Below, in pieces: positions 18,413-19,806 of a stretch of DNA of 64,000 bases. A model generated the notes under the pieces. The model saw only the letters and a program-made list of their open reading frames with translations. It did not search any database and was not told the origin of the DNA. This DNA comes from Bacteroidota bacterium. GTDB taxonomy: Bacteria; Bacteroidota; Ignavibacteria; Ignavibacteriales; Ignavibacteriaceae. The DNA lies in the NCBI GenBank assembly GCA_021824565.1, contig JAKAKL010000101.1, positions 1-64,000 on the forward strand. Reading direction: 5' to 3'. The translations under genes were made by a program, and so were the position numbers. Every line of letters starts with the position of its first letter. Position 1 is the first letter of the stretch.

Positions 18413-18756
18413 TTTATCAACTTTTTCTGAAAAGTATAAAACAGCATTTAATGTAGCAAGATGCAAATAACAACGATGCATACATTTATATCTGCCTTCA
18501 TTTAAATCTTCTTTATAATCTTTACGAATTGTATTAATACTAGTGAGTTTATCTGCAGGTTTCTGCGAACTGATAATCCAGAGAAGATTTCCTTCTCTGT
18601 CATTCCTATTTCCCGTTGTATGTACCAAAAAGCTTTCCCTTAATAACTATCTTTTTGAAAGATCAAAGATTACTTCTTTTCCTAAAGATGACATCTTTAT
18701 ATCTTTAATTTAATTATTCCTTCCGCTTTATGCAAGAATAAAATAAAAAAATTATT
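18413..18756. other. Gene-poor region upstream of the lipoprotein
   Basis: The minus-strand frame of the lipoprotein stays open to about 18628, but this segment lacks a plausible start or known motif. The rest is AT-rich and I see no RNA gene. It may carry the lipoprotein promoter, which I could not assign. Confidence 0.4.
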
Positions 18757-18798
18757 ACACAGAGTTTCGCAGAGTGCACACAAAGTTTCACAGAGAGT
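18757..18798. repeat. Two tandem 21-bp units (ACACAGAGTTTC type)
   Basis: Copy 1 (18757-18777) starts ACACAGAGTTTCGCAG and copy 2 (18778-18798) starts ACACAAAGTTTCACAG; they match at 17 of 21 positions with no gap. On the minus strand they read LCETLCALCETLC. The period equals that of the large array 190 bp away, but the unit sequence is different. Confidence 0.6.
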
Positions 18799-18890
18799 TA
18801 AAACTCTATGCAACATGTTCTTCAATTTATAAAGCAAAATCAACTAGCATTTCTGCCGCAGTTCGGTAAGTATTCTTCTGTATGTGATAA

Positions 18891-19469
18891 ATGAACATGT
18901 ATTCTTTGAGGTTTATTGTTAATTACTTAAGTAGTGTTTTTCTTTCTAAGGATAAATTAATATGTCCATTAATCACATTTGAACTTTCGTTGATGTTTTC
19001 CACAAGTTCGTTGATGTCGGACAGCACTTCAAAGATGTTTTCCACAACTTCGAAGATGTTTTCCACGACTTCGAAGATGTTTTCCACGACTTCGTTGATG
19101 TTCGCCACGACTTCGAAGAAGTTTTCCACGAGTTCGAAGATGTTTTCCACGACTTCGAAGATGTTCGCCACGAGTTCGTTGATGTTTTCCACGACTTCGA
19201 AGATGTTTTCCACGACTTCGTTGATGTTTTCCACGACTTCGAAGATGTTTTCCACGACTTCGAAGATGTTCGCCACGACTTCGAAGATGTTTTCCACGAC
19301 TTCGAAGATGTTTTCCACGACTTCGTTGAAGTCAGACTGTGATTCAAAGTTACTTTATGCCGCCGCGCTGCATCCTGCTAAAAATATTTTAACAATAATT
19401 ATAAGAACTGTATGTAAAATAATTTTTAGAGAGTGCCGCCAAATCAAAAAGCGAACTGAAAGGAAGTAG
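18891..19469 (+). CDS. Doubtful ORF across the 21-bp array (plus strand)
   Basis: 192 codons from an ATG at 18891, with no ribosome binding site. The centre is a MFSTTSK heptad repeat created by the 21-bp array. It has the only ATG-started frame over the array. However, in this frame array variants change Met to Lys and Lys to Leu, whereas a minus-strand frame gives milder changes. It may be non-coding. Confidence 0.25.
   Translation: MNMYSLRFIVNYLSSVFLSKDKLICPLITFELSLMFSTSSLMSDSTSKMFSTTSKMFSTTSKMFSTTSLMFATTSKKFSTSSKMFSTTSKMFATSSLMFSTTSKMFSTTSLMFSTTSKMFSTTSKMFATTSKMFSTTSKMFSTTSLKSDCDSKLLYAAALHPAKNILTIIIRTVCKIIFRECRQIKKRTERK
18973..19347 (-). CDS. Possible heptad-repeat protein across the 21-bp array (minus strand)
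   Basis: 124 codons from a TTG at 19347, with no ribosome binding site. The array reads as SKSWKTS heptads. Unit variants in this frame give Ser to Thr, Lys to Arg, Lys to Asn and a silent Thr change, which is more conservative than in the other two frames I compared. The only long open frame in the second array at 52.0 kb is in the same register. A competing minus frame reads FEVVENI heptads. Translation is unproven. Confidence 0.3.
   Translation of the reverse strand: MNHSLTSTKSWKTSSKSWKTSSKSWRTSSKSWKTSSKSWKTSTKSWKTSSKSWKTSTNSWRTSSKSWKTSSNSWKTSSKSWRTSTKSWKTSSKSWKTSSKLWKTSLKCCPTSTNLWKTSTKVQM
18992..19327. repeat. Tandem array of sixteen 21-bp units
   Basis: Sixteen units of exactly 21 bp with no indels. 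Each typical unit starts GATGTTTTCC and ends GACTTCGAA or GACTTCGTT. Variants recur at a few positions: TT to CG at positions 7-8 (units starting 19097, 19160 and 19265), C to G at 15, and AA to TT at 20-21. The second unit (19013-19033) is divergent. A degenerate seventeenth unit follows at 19328-19348. The consensus has no stop codon in any of the six frames, so long ORFs over it are not by themselves evidence of coding. Confidence 0.95.
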
Positions 19470-19806
19470 TTAAATTAGAATGTATAGAAAAGATTATCCC
19501 TTTGTACCCATTTCTTTAAATTTCTTTAATACATAATGTAAGCTCATCAAGTTTTAACAACGGGTTTTATTTTTACTAAGGTTAAGAAAGCAGATAAGGT
19601 TTTTCGCACTATATCAAAAACATTCTGGAATTAAAAATGCGCAGATAAATCATATCAAAGCAACTTATTTTTCTTTCTGACCTTAGCAATAGTAGGTACC
19701 CGCCAGTATTTTACCCTATTATCTTATTTGGCTGTTACAAACACATTTCAACAATCATTCTTAGGTTGTCGCCTACGAAAAGATAGTCTGCGCAGTTGGT
19801 AAATTC
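19470..19806. other. Intergenic region without a recognised feature
   Basis: 337 bp between the repeat region and the 3' end of the multi-PAS kinase gene. It is AT-rich, with no open frame of note, no tRNA-like structure and no strong terminator hairpin that I can see. Confidence 0.5.

Follow-up and report, generated by a model that had tools for sequence, protein, structure and literature searches.

The 64,000-nucleotide stretch of DNA analysed here (the window) lies on contig C68 of a 4.59-Mb genome in 148 contigs, and it contains at 18986-19342 an array of contiguous 21-bp units that runs without indels over 17 steps, with the consensus TTCGAAGATGTTTTCCACGAC on the plus strand. Fifteen of the 17 steps, counted from 18986, agree with this consensus in at least 17 of 21 positions; the diverged ones are the second (13/21) and the last (9/21). 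The minus strand is taken as the sense strand of the array because its leader and the sister cassettes described below read on this strand. With a TRF score of 481, against a maximum of 63 in ten simulated 64-kb sequences (first-order Markov), the array is not a product of chance, and the exact 21-bp run without indels reported in an earlier note on this DNA is borne out. The recurring paired variants described there are equally real: at unit positions 5-6, AA changes jointly to TT in 6 of the 17 units, and CG occupies positions 13-14 in 3 units. These paired variants are also found in other arrays of the same genome, a distribution that fits the shuffling of units by recombination proposed at the time. 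A CRISPR array is rejected, as the units adjoin one another and unique spacers are absent between them. The unit of the window also occurs on contigs C43, C10 and C89, with a degenerate copy on C56; an exact 31-mer of it gave no match in the genome contigs searched.

Read on the minus strand, the array is preceded by a 5' leader (19326-19473) that is 87% identical over 150 bp to the flank of the C43 array and 79% identical over 197 bp to that of C10, the match to C10 extending further out. Within this leader, a pattern search located the box CAGTTCGCTTTTTGATTTGG (19439-19458, minus strand). Its 22-base form (TT followed by CAGTTCGCTTTTTGATTTGG) has 4 sites in the 4.59-Mb genome at up to three mismatches, all of them beside arrays and pointing into them, and the box is also present ahead of the orthologous arrays in genomes G004 and G012. 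A candidate promoter-like element, TTG-N18-TATTTT, was recognized by eye at 19416-19442 on the minus strand; the spacing is N20 in C43, C10, C15 and G008.

Directly past the array, still on the minus strand, a tail (18910-18985) matches the corresponding stretch of C43 with 70% identity over 76 bp. It leads to the interval 18761-18909 (minus), where the sister loci carry a gene of the PQLLE superfamily; no gene is found here, nor was a PQLLE remnant detected by HMM between 17601 and 18990. Further on, a post-gene border (18504-18760, minus) is 86% identical over 257 bp to C43, where the match starts 78 bp past the stop codon of the PQLLE gene, and 83% identical over 255 bp to the DNA that comes after the C15 gene; in the 1.98 Mb compared, about 0.88 Mb of which comes from this genome, no match was found beyond these two contigs.

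Sequence flanking the array is thus common to C68, C43 and C10 on both sides, and the window has leader, array and post-gene border in common with a gene-bearing cassette, the downstream PQLLE gene being absent. Since neither gene nor HMM remnant is present, we call the locus a gene-less copy and not a full member. The C43 and C15 loci encode proteins only 14% identical and have unlike arrays, but their 3' flanks are 97% identical, including approximately the last 12 codons, and they have the leader box in common. Because the borders match those of C43 and C15 without the gene, and because the flanks of these two loci are alike despite distant proteins, the best reading of the window locus is probably that of a gene-less copy of a cassette recombining between conserved borders, borders that the earlier reading of the array had missed. 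An empty-site comparison through the neighbouring kinase returned best non-self matches about 50% identical, which are likely paralogues.

Two further features were noticed in these flanks. The post-gene border carries a perfect inverted repeat, GATGACATCATT-CGGA-AATGATGTCATC, at about 507-534 of C43 and 950-977 of C15 (locus L043), and a changed version of it in the window. Moreover, compared with C43, the 3' flank of L043 contains an insertion of about 300 bp (approximately 1064-1370) with inverted-repeat ends and a duplicated AGACTAAAGTCT, seen by eye, that resembles a small non-autonomous mobile element.

Period-21 arrays in the genome and its relatives

Arrays of this period are frequent in the genome. 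TRF analysis of 881,984 bases of the 4.59 Mb, a non-random sample in which C43, C10, C89, C56 and C15 had been chosen for the window array or its flank and C20, C132, C5 and C47 after weak array matches, returned 70 array clusters; 37 of them score at least 100, and in 28 of these 37 the period is a multiple of 21. Without the five contigs chosen for the window array or its flank, the proportion is 23 of 31 strong clusters. The units of these arrays are mostly unrelated in sequence, although a few families recur. After merging, 16 of 27 arrays overlap no predicted gene; the remaining 11, the window array included, overlap ORFs (from a simple gene caller) that lie largely inside the array. Regarding relatives, 14 of 19 clusters scoring at least 80 share the period, several of the stretches having been chosen for their arrays, and 80 kb of G067 contained no arrays. 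The control from another organism is small: 50 kb of Escherichia coli gave one TRF row, of period 12.

Other repeats accompany this class. Arrays with 7-bp units, perhaps a separate or a precursor class, are present at C20:275393-275479, G019:C19:33772-33842 and G020:C1:65707-65844. A 228-bp tandem array, whose period is not a multiple of 21, extends over about 950 bp between predicted genes at C5:12264-13212, and a dispersed repeat of about 250 bp, with copies approximately 64-82% alike, is found in the right flank of C10, in C5, at C43:4078-4261, in C20 and several times in G004:C7 and G001:C25.

PQLLE genes and other array-linked proteins

On C43, a gene for a 241-residue protein begins 91 bp past the array, and its orthologue also follows an array in three genomes of the same genus (G012, G008 and G004). 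The gene that follows the C15 array encodes a member of NCBIfam NF052641, 'PQLLE family protein' (108.4 bits for a curated cut-off of 80), and the C41 protein likewise exceeds this cut-off. The C43 protein, at 22.5 bits, falls below it and is assigned to the superfamily because it is tied to members only via intermediates (phmmer single linkage).

PQLLE loci were collected by protein family alone, regardless of repeats. The family search found candidates in 19 out of 97 genomes (two of these false) and, within the phylum, in 7 out of 296; the present genome is counted in both figures. A peptide-pattern scan of named genomes returned 13 loci, 7 of which had already been found. The locus set comprised 33 of the 41 rows of the first family listing, L148, 10 new loci from the second listing and the 13 from the pattern scan, leaving out two G012 fragments, G044:C188, G012:C68, G019:C12, G005:C78, G001:C3 and G012:C95, which has an array, yet is uncounted. 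Removal of the false matches L166 and L167 and of the duplicates L188, L190-L194 and L196 resulted in 48 non-redundant loci, among which the broken or partial genes L156, L161 and L169 were kept and the near-identical L151 and L152, from two genomes, are counted twice.

An array whose period is a multiple of 21 (TRF score of at least 50) lies within 1 kb upstream of 34 of these 48 loci and downstream of 3, two of the downstream matches having periods of 147 and 273 and the third being a two-copy 21-bp repeat. The asymmetry holds for loci with at least 600 bp on both sides (29/39 upstream, 3/39 downstream) and at a score of at least 100 (25/48 and 2/48), and upstream-only loci outnumber downstream-only ones 33 to 2 (p=3.7e-8). 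Arrays of other periods are found upstream of 11 and downstream of 7 of the 48 loci. As background, period-21k arrays lie upstream of 40 and downstream of 39 of 691 genes (30 and 33 at a score of at least 100), a figure drawn from the sampled genome alone, whereas the 48 loci come from many. Nine of the 34 upstream arrays are weak only (score below 80, often two to four copies), and 14 loci have no such array within 1 kb upstream, among them three with less than 300 bp of upstream DNA and L186, whose array ends 1.13 kb away. The association extends to another class of the phylum, in which one of two PQLLE loci has arrays (G181), and in G117 three different 21-bp arrays stand in a row ahead of one gene. 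We consider it highly probable that array and PQLLE gene form a cassette. Conversely, the array does not need the gene, since only 2 of the 27 sampled arrays of this genome (C43 and C15), or 3 with the remote family described below, adjoin one.

This remote family, represented by C20:68744, is related to PQLLE with an hhalign E value of 1.8e-5 (probability 78%), and 4 of its 7 loci are preceded by 42-bp arrays. The predicted models of C20:68744 and of the C43 protein (mean pLDDT 77.5 and 89.1) have a similar order of helices. A third family (C20:322743) was set aside as support, an array being present at 1 of its 4 loci. Searching PDB and viral folds with the PQLLE model gave no match at E<=0.001, the top PDB entry being the Smc5/6 arm (E=0.024), and a second fold comparison gave Z scores up to 9.8 to helical bundles, a range common for helical models; positive support for DNA binding was not found in the model. 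A basic tail, as a possible means of binding, was rejected, as lysine-rich tails occur in a minority of these proteins only and their net charges run from -13 to +14. Six array-linked proteins have no Pfam match above cut-off, viral contigs contain no relative of alignment A2, and three other array-linked proteins, taken as single sequences, showed no significant similarity to A1 in direct profile comparison. Other architectures include C5:135102-135713, where a helical domain with a PQLL-like motif precedes a fibronectin-III-like domain (below the Pfam cut-off), and the G117 loci L181 and L185, whose longer proteins have an extra C-terminal part.

Candidate roles of the array

Twenty-one base pairs make two turns of B-DNA, and no smaller whole number of bases does so; in a 21-bp repeat, all units therefore present the same face. 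Consistent with a role at this level, the period outlasts the sequence. Array units are 0.95 identical at 98% protein identity and 0.71 at 77%; for seven protein pairs 63-76% identical they are 0.48-0.57 identical, against a null of mean 0.45 and 95th percentile 0.53, so that some homologous pairs are above chance (0.57 at 68-76% protein identity), and four pairs at 43-57% protein identity reach 0.62-0.67. These values indicate that unit sequence erodes fast without always being erased, whereas place and period last, and the residual similarity above chance leaves room for sequence-specific binding.

Helix-phase signals in base composition are modest, and their p values are uncorrected for the many harmonics compared. 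Two disjoint array sets both show a depleted W/S harmonic at 10.5 bp (p=0.011 and p=0.022; 0.0016 when pooled), an effect that would prevent the array DNA from curving. The PQLLE set alone has raised R/Y (p=0.017) and A-T (p=0.0002) harmonics at 10.5 bp, and the non-PQLLE set has an A-T harmonic at 21 bp instead (p=0.0004); with disjoint sets, the R/Y signal first seen at 10.5 bp lost significance outside the PQLLE set (p=0.15). At 5.25 bp, a strong W/S harmonic of the PQLLE set has no counterpart in the other. Dyad symmetry of the unit is not convincing (z of 1.87 in one array set and 0.33 in the arrays upstream of PQLLE genes).

Taken together, the harmonics, the constant period and the upstream place favour a docking array acting at the level of DNA. 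We therefore propose, with a probability of about 0.4 for architecture and mechanism combined, that the array is a non-coding part of the cassette and serves as docking DNA, the last of three options in the earlier note, a protein-binding DNA array, which survives as a role predicted from sequence. The complete cassette probably consists, in this order, of the leader, the 21-bp array, a gene for a small all-helical protein of the PQLLE superfamily and the conserved post-gene border. The array would act as double-stranded DNA on which the PQLLE product, or a nucleoid protein, might dock unit after unit, and the resulting cooperative nucleoprotein tract could control or mark the cassette. That a protein binds the array, which protein this may be and with what effect, we infer from sequence features. 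A more specific and so far speculative version, unlikely to hold in full, is that the cassette pairs helical protein and DNA array by geometry: the two-turn period would be required and the letters largely free, the protein or a partner would assemble along one face, and recombination between the borders could remove the gene and leave solo arrays.

A serious rival to docking, although we deem it somewhat improbable, is a function-free satellite riding on recombining cassettes, in which arrays would be grown and homogenized by slippage and unequal exchange, take their period from the duplication machinery and gather near recombination-prone PQLLE cassettes. The many orphan arrays, the turnover of unit sequence, the recombined cassettes and the existence of 7-bp arrays all agree with such an origin, as do the diverged edges and homogeneous centres that arrays present by eye. 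It is however hard to obtain the excess of upstream-only loci from a region-wide mutational bias, and the multiple-of-21 rule spans unlike sequences and several genera.

A role as leader RNA is possible but unlikely. The array would then be a long transcribed 5' UTR of the PQLLE gene, setting its expression via an RNA-binding protein, copy number or translation. Arrays indeed sit 5' of the gene, four of them have a promoter-like leader directed towards the repeats, and their sense strand is A-rich (A-T excess of 0.113, against 0.046 in other upstream DNA). Nevertheless, a strict 21-bp period is unneeded for a role in RNA, many arrays have no PQLLE gene, and RNA structure is not in excess on either strand: across 34 arrays, folding relative to unit-shuffled controls gave a mean z of 0.07+-0.19 for the sense and 0.17 for the antisense strand. 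A structured RNA array, which the earlier note had listed as an option, is rejected on this equality of folding energies.

The reading favoured at that time, a translated heptad forming a phase-variable or coiled-coil protein, now appears very unlikely. A 21-bp unit suits a heptad, and the array might encode a seven-residue repeat peptide (minus-strand FEVVENI or SKSWKTS), perhaps a coiled coil. The claim that the array is open in all six frames proved wrong: over 18992-19327 four of six frames are free of stops, one plus frame having 4 stops and one minus frame 1. At C10, the FEVVENI frame is open through to a plausible C-terminus (136 aa), and similarity at the protein level extends to G004 (E=1.1e-5). 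A crude hexamer score, for which long ORFs served as the training set, is coding-like for the window array in a plus frame (0.58) and in a minus frame (0.51), but gets little weight because it is so on both strands. Against translation, an in-frame TAA (19355-19357, minus strand) stands just ahead of the window array in the FEVVENI frame, and the 3-bp harmonic is not raised in array composition. Although open frames exist, unit variation has no codon phase, neither in the window array alone (p=0.997), nor over 43 arrays (codon-position entropy; Fisher p=0.89), C132:138883 being the single exception (p=0.011), nor in the 31 non-redundant arrays that precede PQLLE genes (p~1). Among 30 PQLLE-upstream arrays, the antisense strand has an open frame as often as the sense strand (22 against 19), and 11 have no stop-free frame at all on the sense strand. 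Several arrays of this genome have no open frame whatsoever, and their period is the same apart from an occasional shift of 1 bp, which makes it unsafe to deduce translation, as had been done, from the absence of indels. Without codon phase and with several arrays closed, a heptad-repeat protein gene is not supported. If the array is indeed non-coding docking DNA, annotation of these genomes is at risk of taking period-21 arrays for coding heptad proteins.

Known repeat systems and significance

Docking DNA brings to mind iteron and centromere arrays, whose helically phased direct repeats measure about 17-22 bp, and the window array has this kind of repeat (21-bp units, no indels). Iterons of plasmid origins have directly repeated units, each about two helical turns long, ahead of a single gene; in the PQLLE cassette, however, the neighbouring protein is not recognized as an initiator, unit sequence changes while the period stays, and copies per genome are many. 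Plasmid centromere arrays such as parC and tubC likewise place helically phased repeats beside a small gene as a suggested binding platform, but no partner NTPase was noticed by eye next to the cassette, whose protein is modelled as all-helical. That the arrays are relics of iteron-type origins or of centromeres for plasmid partition, and PQLLE their unrecognized binder, is extremely unlikely: in spite of the resemblance, no initiator or ParA-like neighbour was noticed by eye in the first 110 residues of predicted neighbours, six array-linked proteins have no Pfam match above cut-off, arrays have up to 24 units, and copies in one genome are many.

The TAACTGA heptamer repeats known from Beggiatoaceae, Cyanobacteria and Bacteroidetes resemble the present arrays in being direct repeats of intergenic DNA ahead of genes, partly in Bacteroidetes and with a suggested regulatory role. 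They differ by a fixed 7-bp unit, by downstream genes whose functions follow no pattern, and by a location often close to start codons (PMC4679880). Regarding PQLLE itself, NCBIfam NF052641 only names the protein, and the upstream array is an observation of the present analysis. In the literature searched, which excludes most subscription journals and all bioRxiv preprints, we found no account of period-21 arrays for this group and, by full text, no paper naming PQLLE, which is weak evidence of absence.

If the docking reading is true, a cassette present in several classes of one phylum would carry an array whose period is better preserved than its sequence, which sets it apart from iterons, CRISPR and ordinary VNTRs. 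The reading would provide a first handle on the PQLLE family and would raise the question of whether a protein can read helical phase rather than sequence.
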